DNA of 64,000 nucleotides from Bombella intestini (GTDB lineage Bacteria > Pseudomonadota > Alphaproteobacteria > Acetobacterales > Acetobacteraceae): the NCBI RefSeq assembly GCF_002003665.1, contig NZ_JATM01000005.1, positions 1 to 64,000 on the forward strand, read 5' to 3'. The notes under the pieces are model-generated. The model saw only the letters and a program-made list of their open reading frames with translations. It ran no database searches and was not told the DNA's origin. Shown here piece by piece: positions 1 through 7,903 of the stretch. Every line of letters begins with the position of its first letter. Position 1 is the stretch's first letter. A program made the translations under genes and the position numbers.

Positions 1-1480
1 GACGGTGCAGGCCTGACCGTAACCAGCAACAATGCCACCGTCGGCTCCCTCGCCGGAAGCAGTAACGGCACGCTGAATGGTACGCTGCGCCTCACCAATG
101 CCAAGGACAGCTATGCTGGCACCCTCTCCGGCAATGGCGGTCTCGCCATCGAAAACGGCACAGAGACCCTCACGGGCAAGCAGGCTTATACGGGTGACAC
201 AACCGTTGCTCAGAATGGTGGCCTGAACCTTGCGGGGTCCCTCGCTGGGGCACTGGCCAACAGCGGTAAAACCACCCTTCAGGATGGTTCTTCCGTCGCT
301 GGTGATGTCACCAATAGCGGCACACTCAATGCCACGAACGCCACGCTCAGCAGCGCTCTGAACAACAGCGGTAAGGCAACACTCACAAACAGCAAGGCTG
401 GTGATGTCACTAACGCTGAAGGAGCAACCTTCAACGCTACGGGTGGCTCTCAGGCTTCCGCTACAAACAGCGGTACCATGACCCTCGCCGGTGGAAACAC
501 AACAAGCGGTAATGTCACCAATAAGGATAAGGGAACCCTGACGCTTGATGGCAGCACCATCAACGGTACCCTCACCCATGACGGCGCAGGCCTGACCGTA
601 ACCAGCAACAATGCCACCGCCGGCTCCCTCGCCGGAAGCAGTAATGGCACGCTGGATGGTACGCTGCACCTCAACAATGCCACCGGCACCTACAATGGCA
701 GCCTCTCCGGTCATGGCGGCCTCGCCATCGATAAGGGCACAGAGACCCTTACAGGCAAGCAGGCTTATACGGGTGACACAACCGTTGCTCAGAATGGCGG
801 CCTAAACCTTGCGGGGTCCCTCGCTGGAGCACTGGCCAACAGTGGTACGACCACCCTTCAGGATGGTTCTTCCGTCGCTGGTGATGTCACCAATAGCAGC
901 ATACTCAATGCCACGAACGCCACGCTCAGCAGCGCTCTGGACAACAGCGGTAAGGCAACACTCACAAACAGCAAGGCTGGTGATGTCACTAACGCTGCAG
1001 GAGCAACCTTCAACGCTACGGGTGGCTCTCAGGCTTCCGCTACAAACAGCGGTACCATGACCCTCGCCGGTGGAAACGCAACAAGCGGTAATGTCACCAA
1101 TAAGGATAAGGGAACCCTGACGCTTGATGGCAGCACCATCAACGGTACCCTCACCCATGACGGTGCAGGCCTGACCGTAACCAGCAACAATGCCACCGTC
1201 GGCTCCCTCGCCGGAAGCAGTAACGGCACGCTGAATGGTACGCTGCACCTCAACAATGCCACCGGCACCTACAATGGCAGCCTCTCCGGCAATGGCGGCC
1301 TCGCCATCGATAAGGGCACAGAGACCCTTACAGGCAAGCAGGCTTATACGGGTGACACAACCGTTGCTCAGGCTGGCGGCCTGAACCTTGCGGGCTCCCT
1401 CGCTGGGGCACTTGCCAACAGTGGTAAGGCCACCCTTCAGGATGGCTCTTCCGTTGCTGGTGATGTCACCAATAGTGGCA
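1..1480 (+). repeat. 579-bp (193-codon) tandem repeats in the autotransporter
   Basis: The phrase GACGGTGCAGGCCTGACCGT starts at base 1, recurs with one change at 580 and returns at 1159, so the period is exactly 579 bp. Copies 1 and 2 are complete. Copy 3 runs to about 1480 and then diverges. More copies may lie left of the window. The copies are close to identical in places and mosaic in others: codons 30-45 of copy 1 resemble the diverged segment at 1669-1725 more than copy 2. This suggests gene conversion between units. Confidence 0.93.
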
Positions 1481-3471
1481 CCGGTAATCTGACAGCTACC
1501 AACGCCAAGCTGAACAATGTCACAACAGATGGGACATTGCTGCTCGACAAGGGAACAACTGTTGCCAACAAGCTCGCTGCTAATGGTGGGACATTCACCA
1601 TTGGGGAAGGTGGTGCCTCTGTCGGCTCCCTCGCTGGGAACGGCACAAGCCAGGGTATCCTCAACGACACCCTCACCCTCACCAAGGCCAAGGACAACTA
1701 TGCTGGGTCCCTCTCCGGCAATGGCGGCCTGACAATCGCTGGTGGAACTGAAGTACTGACGGGCAACAGCACCTATTCTGGTCCTACAATGATCCAGAAT
1801 CAGGCGATGTTGGAAGTAGACGGCAACAACGGTCTTGCAAGTGGCCTGGTTACCGTCGGGAACGGTGCAACCCTGCGTGGTATAGGCACTGTCGGGTCCA
1901 CACAGGTTGCCTCTGAGGGTGTGATTGCACCGGGTACTATCGGCTCTAATACGCCATCGACCCTGCATATCAATGGTGATCTAACCATGGCACAGGGCTC
2001 TATTTTGCGTATTCGTGGTACGAGCGATACGACAGGTCAGACCATCGACACAGCCAAGGGTACTGGATACCAAGAGGTCGCTTCCGACCGTCTGGCCATT
2101 ACCGGGAAGGCAAACCTGCAAGGTGGGACGCTGGACCTCCAGCTGAAAAATGCAGGTCTGGGCCTGACATATAACCAGGCTTATCGAATCCTGACAGCTA
2201 CAGGCGGGGTCAGTGGTCAGTTTGATGCCAAACTTTCCAGCAATCTGGCACCTCAATATGCCTATCTGGACCCAACCTTCGCTTACAGTGCTGATGCTGT
2301 TGACATCGTTATGCGCCGCAAGCCTAACTCCTTCAGCATAGTCGGTGAAACACGCAACCAGATCACCGCAGGCCATGGGCTGGATCGTCTTGACCAGACC
2401 TCGGCACTGAGCCAAGCCATGACAGGTCTGACTAAAACTCAGGCACGTCAGGCACTGGATAATCTCTCTGGTGAGTTACATGCCTCTATCCGCACAGCCC
2501 TGATTCAGGACAGCTTCTACATCCGCAATGCGGCCATGAACCGTCTGGCAAACAGCGACTGCGACTATGGCCGCAACGGTCAGAGCCTTTATGATCTGAA
2601 GACGCATCAAAAGAACGGTGCTTGCTCTTCCGACCATGCCGTTCTTTGGGGGCAGGCTTATGGGGGGCTGGGCCATAATGGTGGAGATAACAATGCTGCC
2701 CTTATGCACCACAACACGGCCGGGTTCATCATGGGGGCTGATGCTCCGATCAACCATAGCAACTGGCGTGTCGGCGGGCTGCTCTCTTACGGGCACTCTC
2801 AGTTCAACGTCCAGCGGGGACGTTCTTCTTCTGGCAACAGCAACAACATCTCCGTTGGAGCCTATGCCGGGACACATTGGGGCCGCGTGAACCTGCGTCT
2901 AGGTGCTGCTTATAGCTGGAATGTCATCAACACCCGGCGTCAGATCGCCGTTGGTGATTATGGCGGGCGTGTCAACAGTGGCTATCTGGGCGGAACAGCA
3001 CAGACCTTCGCCGAGCTGGGCTACAAGATGCGTGGTGAGCATGGCGTGTTCGAGCCGTTCATGAACGTGTCCTACGTGAACATGCAGACCAACAGCTATC
3101 GTGAGCATGGCAATGAAGCCGCTCTGCGCAGCCGTGGGACAGATGCTGGTGTTACCTTCTCCACTTTCGGCTTCCGTGCCGCCACGAAGCTGAACATTGG
3201 CCGGACGATCTTCACGCCGCACCTCACGGCAGCGTATCGCCGCGGGTTTGGCCGTCTGGGTTCACGCCAGCATGAGTCCTTTGCCACGACTGGTGGAAGC
3301 AGCAGCATGGATGTCGCCGGTGTGCTGCTTTCCGACAATGCCGCTATTATCGACACTGGCGTGACAGCCAGCCTGAACGACCATGTCGATCTGGACCTGT
3401 CCTATATCGGCCAGTATGGCAACCAGTCCACCGAGAGCGGTGCAACGGGCTCCTTCAAGATGAAGTTCTGA
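1..3471 (+). CDS. Autotransporter adhesin (type V secretion), 5' end outside window
   Basis: The reading frame is open from base 1, so this is the C-terminal 1156 residues of a larger protein. The passenger is rich in N, G, T and S, as expected of a beta-helix. It is built from rungs of the type NSG-x-x-TL-x-x-G-x(4)-G-x-VTN, arranged in 193-residue super-repeats. Bases 1750-2040 encode a passenger-associated repeat (GNSTYSGPTMI, then VTVGNGATLRGIGTVG). The last ~277 residues, from about base 2638, form the outer-membrane beta-barrel domain, starting VLWGQAYGGLG and ending in Phe (FKMKF) as beta-barrel proteins do. The barrel inserts in the outer membrane and carries the passenger to the surface. 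Adhesion or biofilm function is inferred from family. The final stretch uses GGT and GCT codons typical of strongly expressed genes here. Confidence 0.93.
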   Translation, partial: DGAGLTVTSNNATVGSLAGSSNGTLNGTLRLTNAKDSYAGTLSGNGGLAIENGTETLTGKQAYTGDTTVAQNGGLNLAGSLAGALANSGKTTLQDGSSVAGDVTNSGTLNATNATLSSALNNSGKATLTNSKAGDVTNAEGATFNATGGSQASATNSGTMTLAGGNTTSGNVTNKDKGTLTLDGSTINGTLTHDGAGLTVTSNNATAGSLAGSSNGTLDGTLHLNNATGTYNGSLSGHGGLAIDKGTETLTGKQAYTGDTTVAQNGGLNLAGSLAGALANSGTTTLQDGSSVAGDVTNSSILNATNATLSSALDNSGKATLTNSKAGDVTNAAGATFNATGGSQASATNSGTMTLAGGNATSGNVTNKDKGTLTLDGSTINGTLTHDGAGLTVTSNNATVGSLAGSSNGTLNGTLHLNNATGTYNGSLSGNGGLAIDKGTETLTGKQAYTGDTTVAQAGGLNLAGSLAGALANSGKATLQDGSSVAGDVTNSGTGNLTATNAKLNNVTTDGTLLLDKGTTVANKLAANGGTFTIGEGGASVGSLAGNGTSQGILNDTLTLTKAKDNYAGSLSGNGGLTIAGGTEVLTGNSTYSGPTMIQNQAMLEVDGNNGLASGLVTVGNGATLRGIGTVGSTQVASEGVIAPGTIGSNTPSTLHINGDLTMAQGSILRIRGTSDTTGQTIDTAKGTGYQEVASDRLAITGKANLQGGTLDLQLKNAGLGLTYNQAYRILTATGGVSGQFDAKLSSNLAPQYAYLDPTFAYSADAVDIVMRRKPNSFSIVGETRNQITAGHGLDRLDQTSALSQAMTGLTKTQARQALDNLSGELHASIRTALIQDSFYIRNAAMNRLANSDCDYGRNGQSLYDLKTHQKNGACSSDHAVLWGQAYGGLGHNGGDNNAALMHHNTAGFIMGADAPINHSNWRVGGLLSYGHSQFNVQRGRSSSGNSNNISVGAYAGTHWGRVNLRLGAAYSWNVINTRRQIAVGDYGGRVNSGYLGGTAQTFAELGYKMRGEHGVFEPFMNVSYVNMQTNSYREHGNEAALRSRGTDAGVTFSTFGFRAATKLNIGRTIFTPHLTAAYRRGFGRLGSRQHESFATTGGSSSMDVAGVLLSDNAAIIDTGVTASLNDHVDLDLSYIGQYGNQSTESGATGSFKMKF

Positions 3472-3498
3472 TCCTCACGCACATCTCTACTTGCAAAC

Positions 3499-3532
3499 AA
3501 AGAAGGGCGGGTCATTATGACCCGCCCTTCTT
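3499..3532. terminator. Intrinsic terminator, probably bidirectional
   Basis: A perfect stem (AAGAAGGGCGGGTCAT pairing with ATGACCCGCCCTTCTT) with a one-base loop lies 28 nt after the autotransporter stop. T and A tracts flank it on both sides. It can stop the autotransporter transcript, and also the peptide gene arriving from the other strand. Confidence 0.88.
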
Positions 3533-3612
3533 CAATTCTGGGCATTACCCAATAGCCTGCGGCACTGGGACAATACCCCCTCACCATTTTCTATCAGCTG
3601 TCCAACAGGACG

Positions 3613-3978
3613 TTAGACAAGACGACCCAGAAGGTCGGCAAAGTCTCGAATACCTGCACTGATATGTCCGGCGGCATCATGCGTTAGAGCTTCCAAAAAG
3701 CTTGCGCCATTTTGCAGGAAACTATCGAGACCCGGCCTAACACGACGTGGGAGAGGTGTTCCGTGCTCTGCCATGTCAGCCTGTGCTCCAGCGAGACTCT
3801 GGCTCATTGACGAACTGCCGCTATCCGTCAATGACGTTCCAGATGAAGCCTGACCAATCAGCTTCCGCTCGGAACTTAACAACCCGTTCAGCAGGACACC
3901 GCCAAGCGTTATGGCAGCCCCCAGCAGCAGGCACCCACCAGATACTTCATTCAACTCATGTTCATTAAGAGTTCTCAT
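3613..3978 (-). CDS. Double-glycine leader peptide A (bacteriocin-like precursor)
   Basis: The 121-residue protein begins MRTLNEHELNEVSGG, a textbook bacteriocin-type leader ending in Gly-Gly. In known systems this is cut by the C39 peptidase domain of a dedicated ABC exporter. The predicted mature part is 106 residues. It has a hydrophobic Gly/Leu-rich start (CLLLGAAITLGGVLLNGLL), a polar Ser-rich middle and an amphipathic C-terminal segment ending DLLGRLV. GGAG lies eight bases upstream of the ATG. The gene faces away from the Hint protein gene. Leader, UTR and C-terminus resemble peptide B (6081-6425). Antimicrobial, signalling or surface roles are all possible, and no exporter or immunity gene is recognisable nearby. 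Confidence 0.72.
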   Translation of the reverse strand: MRTLNEHELNEVSGGCLLLGAAITLGGVLLNGLLSSERKLIGQASSGTSLTDSGSSSMSQSLAGAQADMAEHGTPLPRRVRPGLDSFLQNGASFLEALTHDAAGHISAGIRDFADLLGRLV

Positions 3979-3985
3979 GACGAGT

Positions 3986-4074
3986 CTCCAAAACTTTCAT
4001 CATAGGAAGTCGGAGAATTGGGACCGATTCTCCAAGAATATTGAGCAACATATTCTCTATTGGAGTCAATAATA
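3986..4074 (-). promoter_or_regulatory. Promoter, 5'-UTR hairpin and RBS of peptide A
   Basis: Read on the minus strand, TATTATTGACT (4074-4064) places a -35-like TTGACT 86 nt before the start codon. The sequence GCTCAAT follows 17 nt later where a -10 box would fall. A 7-bp hairpin (GGAGAAT/ATTCTCC, 4012-4033) ends 34 nt before the ATG. GGAG (3986-3989) is the ribosome site. The same elements at the same distances precede peptide B. Promoter activity is inferred. Confidence 0.6.
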
Positions 4075-4389
4075 TTTTTGTTACTTCATGGTAGTTAACT
4101 ATAAAGTAATATAAAAATAACAATTAATTATAAACTTTACTTTTACTTATCCTCAAGTCCATTGCATTAACTCCCCTATTTTATTGATTTTTCCTCTCCA
4201 CCCCTCCTTCAAAATCGCTTTTCCTCCGCCCCCGAAAGACATTTCGGAGCATCTGGGTAGAAGAAGTAAATAAACAAAATCTATTCTGAAAAATTCAAAA
4301 GGAATGAATTAATTTTCGATAAGTAAAAATGACCTACCCTCTCTCTTCGTATCAGAAAAATTCAAAAATAGAGCCAAAGATAGTAGTTC
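4075..4389. other. AT-rich spacer upstream of the Hint gene
   Basis: No gene is seen here. It contains a perfect palindrome TAGTTAACTA (4092-4101), a CCGAAA/TTTCGG hairpin (4232-4247), and the phrase GAAAAATTCAAAA twice (about 4288 and 4359). It is much more AT-rich than flanking genes and presumably carries the Hint gene promoter, which I could not place. Confidence 0.5.
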
Positions 4390-5964
4390 ATGATCGTCCC
4401 AGCTGGCCAAGCCGTTAATTATATTCCACAGGCCCATGAAGCTCTTATCAAAGCCGCTCTTTTCATGCCTGATAACCTCCCTTCATTGTCTGAAGGTCGC
4501 CTTTTCACATTTCAGGGGGGCACGCTGGTTATTGCCCCAGCATCATGGTCGGGGCTTGTTAACTCCTCTATCGTGGCAGCCCCACACTCCCTCATCATAG
4601 ACCCCGGAACGGGCGGTCAGCTCGTCATTGATTATGCAGGGTTAGACAGCACAACACTCCAGACCAACCTGTCTCTAGAGCTGCAGCTAGTCAGCCCACC
4701 GCCGCCCAATTTTAAGCTCCAGTTTGTCTTCTCCACCACACAGGCCTCAACGCAGACGATAACACGACAACGTTACGATATCTCAACTAACCAAACCATC
4801 ATCCAGCTGAATGAAGATTATAGCCCCTACAACACAGCCCATACGAACATCTTCATTCCCGGCAATCCCTACCAAATACCGCAGGACGGGCAATGGTACC
4901 CACTTAACGGCCCAGCAACTGGGCAATCCACACAACAAAGCAGCTCAACTGTTGTCTGTTATCTCGCTGGAACCCTGATTGATACGCCTCAAGGCCCAAA
5001 AGCCATTGAAGAGCTGCGCCCCGGTGATGCTATTCATGTTTTCCAGAACAAGCAGAAATCGGTCGAATATCTTCGCTGGACCGGGCAAAAATCCGTTGTT
5101 CCGGCTTCATCTGATGACTGGCCAATACGCATACGACGCCATGCTTTCGGAGAGAACTGCCCCTTCTACGATCTCTACGTTACAGAAGAACATTGTCTGC
5201 TTCTCAAGGGTGCCTTTGTTCCTGCCCGTATGCTCGTCAATGGCCGGACAATCTTGCGGGAAAAGCGGGATCGTTACGATATTTACCACATCGAAACATA
5301 TGAACACCGCATCATCAGTGCCAATGGCGCCCTCTCTGAAACCTATTTGGATACCGGGAACCGTCCTAGCTTCACAACGCCCGAAGAACACCTGTCCATT
5401 TCCTCCCAGGCAGCCCTTCATTCCCGCGTAAAGAGCTGGCAGCATGATGCCGCCGCCCCCCTAAGGGTGGAACGAGATTTCGTAGAACCTCTTCATGCCG
5501 CCCTAGCCGCCCGAGCCACCCAGCTAGGCTTCCCGAAAGATGCGGCCCCTCATACCCTGACAAACGACCCAGCCTTGACCCTACTAGACCCACGAGGAAC
5601 AGAACTATCTCTCTATCAGCGCACTAACGGCTATTACTTATTCCGGCTGAAAGATGATCCGCCTTTCCTCATCATCAAATCCCGGACAGCACGTCTGGAC
5701 AGGGCTATCGGCCCCTTCGTAGATGATAGACGGATGCTGGGCGTTCTCATTGGTGAGATAATGTTGGTCCAACCCGATGGGACAGACCTACCTCTGACAT
5801 CCCATCTAACAGCCCCGGAAGGCACCGGCTGGGATGTCATGGAAACTGCACACTGCCGCTGGACCAATGGCAAAGCCCGCCTGCCACTCCCCGATGTCGA
5901 GAAACAAGATGGCTGCCTTCTAAAAATCGAAATACTCAGTGCTGGCCCGTATATTCTGTCCTGA
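4390..5964 (+). CDS. Hint (Hedgehog/intein) domain protein, 524 aa
   Basis: A Hint_2-type domain spans about residues 188-345. It opens with the nucleophile Cys190 in VVCYLAGTLIDTPQGPKAIE, continues LRPGDAIHV, YVTEEHCLLLKGAFVPARML and VNGRTI, and ends SETYLDTGNR, the usual motif series in acetic acid bacteria. Hint domains perform N-to-S acyl shift and self-cleavage. The N-terminal ~185 residues (FTFQGGTLVIAPASW, then a proline-rich stretch) match no family I know. The C-terminal ~170 residues (LPLTSHLTAPEGTGWDVME) resemble the tail often appended to these proteins. No signal peptide or transmembrane segment is visible. No clear ribosome site precedes the ATG, so the start is only probable. 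Peptide genes with double-glycine leaders flank it on both sides. Confidence 0.82.
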   Translation: MIVPAGQAVNYIPQAHEALIKAALFMPDNLPSLSEGRLFTFQGGTLVIAPASWSGLVNSSIVAAPHSLIIDPGTGGQLVIDYAGLDSTTLQTNLSLELQLVSPPPPNFKLQFVFSTTQASTQTITRQRYDISTNQTIIQLNEDYSPYNTAHTNIFIPGNPYQIPQDGQWYPLNGPATGQSTQQSSSTVVCYLAGTLIDTPQGPKAIEELRPGDAIHVFQNKQKSVEYLRWTGQKSVVPASSDDWPIRIRRHAFGENCPFYDLYVTEEHCLLLKGAFVPARMLVNGRTILREKRDRYDIYHIETYEHRIISANGALSETYLDTGNRPSFTTPEEHLSISSQAALHSRVKSWQHDAAAPLRVERDFVEPLHAALAARATQLGFPKDAAPHTLTNDPALTLLDPRGTELSLYQRTNGYYLFRLKDDPPFLIIKSRTARLDRAIGPFVDDRRMLGVLIGEIMLVQPDGTDLPLTSHLTAPEGTGWDVMETAHCRWTNGKARLPLPDVEKQDGCLLKIEILSAGPYILS

Positions 5965-5986
5965 CCTACCCGCCAGAACGACGTAA

Positions 5987-6011
5987 GGGGATGGCCATAC
6001 AGACCATCCCC
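5987..6011. terminator. Hairpin between convergent Hint and peptide B genes
   Basis: GGGGATGG (5987-5994) pairs with CCATCCCC (6004-6011) over a nine-base loop, 22 nt past the Hint stop. There is no T-run after it, so it is only a likely terminator. A smaller CCCC/GGGG hairpin at about 6055-6071 sits at the end of peptide B. Confidence 0.45.
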
Positions 6012-6080
6012 CATCACAGAGAGCCCGCCCTTGATCGGACAGAAACCCTACATACACCCCCTATTTGGGGATAGTACGGC

Positions 6081-6425
6081 TTAGATCAGACGTGTAACGA
6101 AGTTCACAGCCTGCTGGATGCCTTCACCAATCAGGGAAATGATGCTGGTAAGCGGGTGCTGCAGGAAGTTAGTGAAAGCCTGAACAGGCCCAAGCAGCTG
6201 CCCCAGGCCACCGAAGCCACCCAGGTTGACGCCAGAGGTATTGGCAGCAGCCGGATAACCAGCGGGTGCATAGTTAGCGGACGGAATCGTGTTGGTGTTG
6301 GCAGCCGGAGCCAGTGCGCTCTGAGCATTGTTACCAAAACCACCAAACAGACCACCAAGCAGGTTGCCTAGCAGACCTGCACCACCGGAAACGCTGTCCA
6401 GCTCACGGCTATTAAGAGCTCTCAT
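6081..6425 (-). CDS. Double-glycine leader peptide B (bacteriocin-like precursor)
   Basis: I place the start at the ATG 6423-6425 rather than five codons upstream. GGAG then lies eight bases before it, exactly as in peptide A, and the protein begins MRALNSRELDSVSGG, a double-glycine leader. The 99-residue mature part starts AGLLGNLLGGLFGGFG, has an Ala/Asn/Pro-rich low-complexity middle with repeated GGFGGLG-like phrases, and ends in an amphipathic segment (SIISLIGEGIQQAVNFVTRLI region). Its last 29 residues align without gaps to those of peptide A, with seven identities. It converges on the Hint gene. A secreted peptide or small surface protein is likely. Its actual activity is unknown. Confidence 0.72.
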   Translation of the reverse strand: MRALNSRELDSVSGGAGLLGNLLGGLFGGFGNNAQSALAPAANTNTIPSANYAPAGYPAAANTSGVNLGGFGGLGQLLGPVQAFTNFLQHPLTSIISLIGEGIQQAVNFVTRLI

Positions 6426-6432
6426 CTCAAGT

Positions 6433-6521
6433 CTCCACACAATTTTCTATTAAGAAATTGGAAGTCTTCATACACCTTCCAAAAGGAATAAGCTCACATA
6501 GTTTGACTACAGTCAACAATA
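6433..6521 (-). promoter_or_regulatory. Promoter, 5'-UTR hairpin and RBS of peptide B
   Basis: Minus-strand TATTGTTGACT (6521-6511) matches peptide A's element at 10 of 11 bases, and its TTGACT is also exactly 86 nt from the start codon, with GCTTATT 17 nt later. A TTGGAAG/CTTCCAA hairpin (6458-6482) ends 33 nt before the ATG, and GGAG is at 6433-6436. Here the TTGACT box is one half of a palindrome (TTGACT-AC-AGTCAA, 6503-6516), a possible operator absent from peptide A. Confidence 0.6.
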
Positions 6522-6895
6522 AAATGATATATTATTTTGAATTAACTTTGCAATAAGATTATATATACTATTATAGTACATCATATTATTTCGTATTTAT
6601 GTTAATAATTTAATCACAATTAGAAATTTTATATATTTTCTTCTATATTTATGAATAGACCGACAAATCGACACCAAGTTTCATAATGTGGTCATCCTCT
6701 ATCATGCGATTAACGCTACCAATAGCATGATGAAATTCATTAAACATTCCACATGCACAACTAACATCGTGACTACCGTCAGACAGTTCCTTGGGTGGCT
6801 AACTCCCCTAAAACATTACCTGATCTATCTTTTTTCTCTGCACACATAGCTTGACCATCCTACCAAAAGTCCTCTAGAAGACGGCCACGCCTTTA
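6522..6895. other. AT-rich non-coding stretch before tRNA-Glu
   Basis: About 370 bases without a credible gene. The first ~140 bases are almost entirely A and T, then composition rises towards the tRNA. No integrase, IS ends or CRISPR repeats were seen. It may be the edge of an acquired segment next to the tRNA gene, but no attachment-site duplicate was found. Confidence 0.5.
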
Positions 6896-6971
6896 GTCCC
6901 GTTCGTCTAGAGGCCTAGGACACCGCCCTTTCACGGCGGCAACACGGGTTCGAATCCCGTACGGGACGCCA
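6896..6971 (+). tRNA. tRNA-Glu (anticodon TTC)
   Basis: The acceptor arms GTCCCGT and ACGGGAC pair. The anticodon stem CCGCC/GGCGG encloses the loop CTTTCAC with anticodon TTC. The T-arm is CGGGTTCGAATCCCG, and CCA is encoded at 6969-6971. Confidence 0.97.
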
Positions 6972-6988
6972 GCAGCTAATATTTCCGG

Positions 6989-7903
6989 TCAGATAAATCC
7001 CCGTTGTTTCATCCAACGCTCTGCCAGAATAGGCCACTGCTCTGTTGGCCCACCTTTACGTCCCAGACCAAACCCATGACCACCGGTCGAAAAACGATGC
7101 TCTTCACAGGGCCGCCGGTGCCGCTGATACGCTTGAAGCAGTAACGCTTCTTGCGCTGGCAGAACAATCGGGTCATCCAACGCATAAGCCATAAACAAAG
7201 GCGGCGCATCATCCCGGACATGCGGCGGCAAAGACCAGCGTTCCGCCCGCACCGGCGTGGGGTCATTCCCCAAACATACCCGGCTGGTACGGCTACCGGT
7301 AAAAGGTGGTGCAACGCTAACAACTGGATAAAGCAACATAAGCAGAGCCAAGGGAATATCGCCTTTCTGCAAAGCAGTCAGACCCATCAAATGGCCCCCG
7401 GCAGAAAACCCCATAAGCCCCACACGCCGTACATCAATCGCTTCACCACCCTGCCCAGATTGCAGCATATGCAGGGCTTGTCTGGCATCCGCCAGCGGGG
7501 CCTCCATACCCTCAGCCCATCCCTCTTTTGGCAGACGGTATAAAAGAATGGCTGCCGTTACGCCTAACGACACCAACCACCGGGCCACGGGCAGGGCTTC
7601 ATGCCCCACGGCAATATGTCCATACCCACCACCAGCAGCGATAATAATAGCCGCCCCATTCGGGCGAGCAGGCCGCATGATATGCAGACCCGGCACATGA
7701 ATACCGAAAACCCGCCCGCCCTGCGCAACACGAGGCTGCTCCACGGCACCAACTTCCGGCCAAAGGGGATAAAAATTGGCAGCATCGTGCAACATGTGTT
7801 TCACAGGGCACATTTCTTGAGCCAGACCATACCTACCTCCCCCGGCAAGTGCTGCCACGGAGAGAACAGAGCAGCCTTTTAAAAACTGACGGCGGGCCTT
7901 CAT
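6989..7903 (-). CDS. Exported alpha/beta-hydrolase (acetyl-esterase type)
   Basis: The 304-residue protein starts with a twin-arginine-like signal (MKARRQFLKG then a hydrophobic run to about residue 28), so it is probably periplasmic. The fold is that of the BD-FAE/acetylxylan esterase group. The oxyanion strand is IIIAAGGGYGH, the nucleophile elbow is GFSAGG (Ser167), the acid is in ALDDP (Asp243 or Asp244), and the histidine is in GGHGFG (His276). AAGAGG precedes the ATG. It probably cleaves short acyl esters from sugars or glycans, but the substrate cannot be read from sequence. It ends 17 nt from tRNA-Glu and is divergent from phoU. Confidence 0.85.
   Translation of the reverse strand: MKARRQFLKGCSVLSVAALAGGGRYGLAQEMCPVKHMLHDAANFYPLWPEVGAVEQPRVAQGGRVFGIHVPGLHIMRPARPNGAAIIIAAGGGYGHIAVGHEALPVARWLVSLGVTAAILLYRLPKEGWAEGMEAPLADARQALHMLQSGQGGEAIDVRRVGLMGFSAGGHLMGLTALQKGDIPLALLMLLYPVVSVAPPFTGSRTSRVCLGNDPTPVRAERWSLPPHVRDDAPPLFMAYALDDPIVLPAQEALLLQAYQRHRRPCEEHRFSTGGHGFGLGRKGGPTEQWPILAERWMKQRGFI

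Follow-up and report, generated by a model that had tools for sequence, protein, structure and literature searches.

Two double-glycine-leader peptides flank a Hint-domain gene in Bombella intestini, in a pairing that recurs beside C39 peptide exporters of Acetobacteraceae

The first 64,000 nucleotides of contig NZ_JATM01000005.1 of Bombella intestini (the window; genome of 2,023,176 bases in 12 contigs) contain three genes whose arrangement raises a question: what is a gene for a Hint-domain protein doing between two genes for double-glycine-leader peptides? The order is pep1 on the minus strand (3613..3978), a Hint_2 gene on the plus strand (4390..5964) and pep2 on the minus strand (6081..6425), with the Hint gene flanked by both peptide genes. 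A sequence-only reading of the window had proposed this arrangement and we confirmed it, finding Hint_2 (PF13403) at residues 189-322 of the central protein with 118 bits against a gathering cut-off of 28.4. pep1 and the Hint gene start divergently from a 411-bp intergenic region (3979..4389), and pep2 converges on the Hint gene with 116 bp between them. Hint genes also recur beside peptide exporters in other genera of the Acetobacteraceae, and this recurrence suggests that Hint protein, peptides and exporter of bee-associated acetic acid bacteria form a partnership not yet described.

The two precursors have 121 (pep1, starting MRTLNEHELNEVSGG) and 114 amino acids (pep2, starting MRALNSRELDSVSGG; its start codon is likely the ATG at 6425 rather than the in-frame GTG at 6440). 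Each opens with a 15-residue leader that ends in GG (3934..3978 and 6381..6425, both minus strand), and predicted cleavage after GG would leave Cys as the first mature residue of pep1. The leaders had been called near-identical; they share the 15-residue double-glycine form, and identity at 10 of 15 positions makes that wording slightly strong. The mature sequences had been called unlike, which mostly holds, as there is at most a weak resemblance between their C-termini (29% over 42 residues, E 0.10), from which the two might be old paralogues. The profile TIGR03949 (class IIb bacteriocin, lactobin A/cerein 7B family) scores 22.3 bits on pep1 (cut-off 21.5), where the matched residues, 3-30, are about half leader; it does not match pep2. 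The leader pattern was absent from 40 of 40 control regions, from positions 10-64 kb of the window and from 39 stretches around Hint genes not linked to an exporter, so its presence at this locus is not due to chance.

All three genes appear to be under constraint, with ratios of nonsynonymous to synonymous substitution rates (dN/dS) far under 1. Between B. intestini and other Bombella, leaving out the closest relative B. favorum, these ratios are 0.09-0.18 for pep1 (two comparisons), 0.26-0.46 for pep2 (four comparisons) and 0.12-0.18 for the Hint gene (four comparisons); within the Hint gene they are 0.14-0.26 for the N-terminal part and 0.09-0.14 for the Hint domain and C-terminus. The most conserved regions of both peptides are the leaders and the C-termini.

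Double-glycine leaders had led the sequence-only reading to propose a secreted-peptide system, to be checked by looking for a C39 exporter and HlyD elsewhere in the genome. Our profile search of the contigs returned a single C39 match (125.7 bits), on another contig, in a neighbourhood (L012) with the order two GA-leader peptides, C39 ABC protein, HlyD and TolC, which makes the proposal plausible. Exporter residues Cys25, His98 and Asp114 have the same spacing as the catalytic triad of CvaB, given as Cys32, His105 and Asp121 in the accessible text of PMC9746304. The two exporter-side peptides form one related group with leader peptides of genomes G255 and G070, and a weak relationship links them to those of G040. 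One of them (L012 11035-11445) resembles DUF5862 with 28.7 bits, under the cut-off of 33.3; this family may include exported double-glycine peptides. In Bombella genome G127, several short GG-leader peptides lie at the exporter (L122 7209-8820), some with repeated FFPPE-like motifs seen by eye, and these are unlike the other Bombella peptides.

To place the locus among its relatives, we took 66 C39 loci from Acetobacteraceae in stretches of at most about 19 kb, 52 of them with an HlyD gene and 14 of other kinds. Loci were chosen by strength of the C39 match and are thus a non-random set. The first batch held 19 of 39 listed places plus G127 (12 of 31 non-Bombella genomes with a match, mostly weak C39 matches, were left out), and the second held 40 places from the 128 matching genomes among 397, favouring small acetic-acid-bacterium genomes. 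For G070 and G040, both among the strongest C39 matches, the close coordinates of Hint and C39 were known at selection, and at least 12 of the 66 stretches end at a contig edge. A Hint gene was present in 17 of the 52 loci with C39 and HlyD, seven of them in Bombella (10 of 45 without this genus), and in 6 of 20 genera: Bombella (7/7), g70 (1/1), g40 (1/10), g31 (4/7), g54 (2/4) and g96 (2/4), with none in the 14 other genera. No Hint gene was found in the 14 other C39 loci, nor in 40 control regions of the same genomes. Two plasmid stretches with exporter matches, from Gluconobacter thailandicus and Kozakia baliensis, likewise have none. Compared with the control regions, the loci are enriched for Hint genes (Fisher P 1.6e-5 with Bombella and 0.001 without), loci of one genus not being independent of each other. 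The control regions, all from genomes whose exporter locus was taken, held no Hint gene where by estimate 2 to 3 were expected, and an expectation from Hint density is the safer guide. This gives about 0.85 genera against 6 observed (Poisson P 2.5e-4) and 3.5 loci against 17 observed, using one genome's Hint count per genus and, for some many-copy genera, a candidate count.

Outside Bombella the association is tight. In all ten loci, 131-1008 bp separate the Hint gene from the closest exporter gene, and in six of them (G040, G177, G248, G299, G374 and G377) the Hint gene stands head-to-head with a leader peptide, as it does in the window. In three of the ten it shares the strand of the adjoining exporter genes: Hint and exporter are on one strand in G255, and in G161 and G393 hlyD and the Hint gene have the same orientation with 131 bp between them. 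It forms an additional gene of compact loci in g31, g54 and g40. Leader peptides occur in 16 of the 18 linked loci, counting the window; none was detected in L140 or in L170, a contig of only 4.4 kb. Within 1.6 kb of the Hint gene, a leader peptide was present in 10 of these 18 (nine of the ten non-Bombella loci and the window, and 0 of the 7 Bombella exporter loci). Near unlinked Hint genes, we found none in 39 distinct stretches holding 45 Hint genes, where flanks are mostly 0.5-1.5 kb per side, so that peptides farther away would escape detection, and the 1.6-kb comparison is the fair one.

A tree of 63 Hint modules, comprising 25 linked and 38 unlinked ones (from a genome without a C39 match or with the match elsewhere, mostly with short flanks), requires seven changes of the linked state, gains or losses, six of which are forced by well-supported branches. 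A single clade of linked Hints was rejected (P 3e-11), so that linked Hints are polyphyletic. The closest relative of the window Hint outside Bombella is that of G070 (support 96/87), which is placed between TolC and two leader peptides. From this grouping with a Hint at an exporter locus, we take the window locus to be a fragment that separated from a G070-like exporter locus. In G070, a stand-alone gene without a Hint domain (L112 14251-14844) is 50% identical to the passenger of the adjacent Hint protein.

The central protein has 524 amino acids in three parts. Its N-terminal passenger (residues 1-189, 4390..4956) has no Pfam match and no confident structure model, and across the family the part before the Hint domain differs in length and sequence. 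The Hint domain (about residues 190-325, 4957..5364; predicted local distance difference test score, pLDDT, about 62-88) is predicted to fold like intein-like domains (Z 15.4 to 2lwy over 119 residues at 2.2 A). Its catalytic residues are nearly invariant: among 63 distinct modules, Cys190 is kept in 62 of the 62 that hold that position, His268 in all 63, and position 265 is Thr in 59 and Ser in 4. The C-terminal part, a beta-rich domain conserved across the family (5365..5961), has D-R-R, W and G positions that are invariant and has no Pfam match. As its 202-residue model (pLDDT 65) had no Foldseek match at E <=0.001 and a best VIA-align Z of only 5.2, we assign it no fold. AIDA adhesin repeats were detected in three of six further family members tested (one above and two below cut-off); these AIDA-matching passengers make a surface role of the family likely. 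On plasmids, members are annotated as 'Hint domain-containing protein' or 'outer membrane protein'.

The Hint domain agrees with type B bacterial intein-like (BIL) domains in its Hint/intein fold, its Cys1 and TxxH and its lack of a C-terminal His-Asn. As described in the accessible text of PMC4031507, type B BIL domains have no similarity to intein block G and cleave uncoupled from splicing. The protein differs from these in that its Hint domain has a variable passenger on the N-terminal side and a conserved domain on the C-terminal side, and in that part of its family is linked to peptide exporters. It also resembles PT-HINT polymorphic toxins, with Hint inside a variable, probably surface-exposed or secreted protein; in those toxins, however, the variable toxin follows Hint, whereas in the window protein the variable region comes before Hint and the C-terminal region is the conserved one. 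The PT-HINT profile did not match the window protein and matched two relatives under cut-off, and we do not count the protein among the polymorphic toxins. Hedgehog-type autoprocessing proteins likewise carry a passenger at the N-terminus and, after it, a Hint domain that has Cys1 and TxxH; unlike them, the Hint protein is bacterial, has an extra C-terminal domain and is not known to transfer sterol.

Within Bombella, an orthologue of the window Hint (63-100% identity) is present in 6 of 11 genomes. pep2 adjoins it in 6 of 6 and pep1 is at the locus in 4 of 6, being missing there in B. apis MRM1 and B. mellum. The C39 exporter occurs in 7 of 11 genomes, namely the six with the orthologue and G127, and four of the five genomes without the orthologue also have no C39 exporter; this co-occurrence may follow the species tree. 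Neither pep1, pep2 nor the Hint gene was found upstream of a conserved PhoU-like gene in the five genomes without the orthologue, of which G124, G125, G126 and G127 were searched for peptides only in that upstream stretch and G032 was searched whole. The autotransporter gene that precedes pep1 in the window was also not found in the upstream stretches of G124-G127, and synteny on that side is unproved.

How, then, might the three genes work together? The explanation we favour, though only as the leading one of several, is that the exported peptides have the Hint protein as a partner, either at the surface or secreted, and that the locus belongs as a satellite to the C39-type I secretion system of this genome. 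pep1 and pep2 would be cargo of this exporter, its C39 domain would cut them after GG, and HlyD and TolC would release them as bacteriocin-like peptides. Their partner at the surface or outside the cell would be the Hint protein, built from a variable N-terminal passenger, a type-B-like Hint and a conserved C-terminal domain; its Hint domain would detach itself from the passenger by thioester-mediated cleavage at Cys190, and the C-terminal domain would probably serve export or anchoring. A joint function would most likely lie in competition or colonisation, with antibacterial activity as one possible outcome. The sequence-only reading had offered partner, carrier, processing factor or immunity component as roles for the Hint protein; partner is the best of the four because the pairing recurs in other Acetobacteraceae genera. 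We saw no sign that Hint processes the peptides or confers immunity to them.

Several observations weigh against a partnership. The exporter and the window peptides are on separate contigs. Relatives of the Hint protein occur in 95 of 120 Acetobacteraceae genomes, often in several copies each, and match 189 plasmid records, 41 of them from Acetobacter and 54 with at least 80% of the query covered; most of them live without such peptides or an exporter, and not one of the 45 unlinked Hint genes has a leader peptide in its flank. Conversely, 35 of the 52 exporter loci have no Hint gene, including nine of the ten in g40 and all four in g85. In Bombella, the exporter-side Hint is 4-6 kb away with genes between that by eye seem copper-related, only 6 of 11 genomes keep the window Hint, and four genomes without a C39 exporter still carry Hint paralogues. 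The sequence-only reading had itself named two signs that would tell against it: separation of peptides and Hint in relatives, and absence of a C39 exporter from the genome. The second does not apply, since the genome has one. The first is found in part, as the Hint family occurs in 95 of 120 genomes, and on plasmids where no leader peptide adjoins it, and is thus not confined to these peptides. pep2 stays beside Hint wherever the orthologue occurs; pep1 is dispensable.

The alternative that survives best, and which we consider possible but clearly less probable, is hitchhiking: genes for Hint surface proteins and for peptide exporters would both be accessory and would accumulate in shared plastic or mobile regions without acting together. 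This would fit the plasmid Hints in Acetobacter, Gluconobacter and Commensalibacter, two of three examined of which adjoin site-specific recombinases, as well as the nearby tRNA and autotransporter gene in the window and the loose linkage of the Bombella exporter-side Hint. Mere co-location does not readily account for the 131-1008 bp spacing in all ten non-Bombella loci, six of them head-to-head with a peptide and three on the exporter strand, or for the 39 unlinked stretches that have no leader peptide. The recombinase genes lie near the plasmid Hints of Commensalibacter melissae and Gluconobacter oxydans (L202, L205), where they might mean switching or mobility.

It is rather doubtful that an unrelated Hint paralogue simply landed between an orphan pair of microcin-like peptides in the Bombella ancestor. 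The orthologue's presence in only 6 of 11 Bombella genomes and the varying presence of pep1 are consistent with such an event, and among the loci read there is no exporter-less Hint/peptide pair outside the six Bombella loci. Independent pairings elsewhere argue against it, as does the relative in G070, whose Hint gene has TolC on one side and two leader peptides on the other.

We think it unlikely that the Hint protein is an immunity or self-protection factor for bacteriocin-like peptides. No other candidate stands beside the peptides: of 40 small open reading frames in 3472-6980, those matched in at least two relatives all overlap pep1, the Hint gene or pep2, a small number outside these genes have a match in the close relative L059 alone, and none was recognised as an immunity gene, which could lie elsewhere in the genome. 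That Hint is an additional gene in the compact loci of g31, g54 and g40 would also suit this role. On the other hand, the Hint family is widespread without leader peptides, and the protein is large, with adhesin-like passengers in some members, whereas the accessible text of PMC9746304 gives 51-216 amino acids for known class II microcin immunity proteins.

Chemical action of Hint on the peptides, in which its thioester would link the freed passenger to the N-terminus of a mature peptide, or in which Hint would cut the peptides, is very unlikely. The Hint fold with conserved Cys190, Thr/Ser265 and His268 would permit it, and Cys would be the first residue of several matured peptides, namely pep1 of the window, pep2 of L059 and peptides of G299 and G374. 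A Cys start is not general, however, since in B. apis and B. mellum matured pep2 would have Phe at its N-terminus, and we rate native ligation by an N-terminal Cys low on that ground; moreover, most Hint relatives have no leader peptide nearby. Least probable of all is an undescribed two-part export system of acetic acid bacteria in which the Hint thioester would hand the surface passenger to the freshly matured peptide, a Hedgehog-like conjugation that would arm or anchor it.

With regard to known peptide systems, the locus is closest to class II microcins of the microcin V type, which it resembles in leader type, C39 triad spacing, HlyD plus TolC and glycine-rich peptides of about 100 residues. 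The definition of this class in the accessible text of PMC9746304 includes a GG or GA leader. pep1 and pep2 have the GG leader, and the genome has a C39 exporter with the triad, HlyD and TolC, not adjacent to them; in contrast to class II microcins, the peptides are spread over two loci, are paired with a Hint protein and are not known to have antibacterial activity. As there is no recognised immunity gene beside them, we do not file them as class II microcins. In PADLOC, neither the peptides nor the Hint protein had a match, and the best match of the exporter fell within its ATPase region. A BAGEL4 screen of 22 Bombella genomes reported no bacteriocins, and the accessible text of that study (PMC9147383) does not mention these peptides. 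In the open-licence literature, we found no description of a Hint/double-glycine peptide pairing, no paper containing 'Hint domain', 'double-glycine' and 'bacteriocin' together and no role for Acetobacteraceae Hint_2 proteins. The loci described here reveal peptides in Bombella, a bee symbiont genus, and their recurrent pairing with a peptide exporter provides a first testable context for the widespread Hint_2 proteins.

Other genes border the locus in the window. Immediately to its left, positions 478-3471 hold an autotransporter barrel gene with internal repeats, at whose position the relatives L058 and L061 have open frames of about 3000 residues. To its right lie a tRNA-Glu and a hydrolase-like gene (6989-7903), which is present as fragments in B. 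favorum (L058 12599-12892) and at full length in B. apis and B. mellum.

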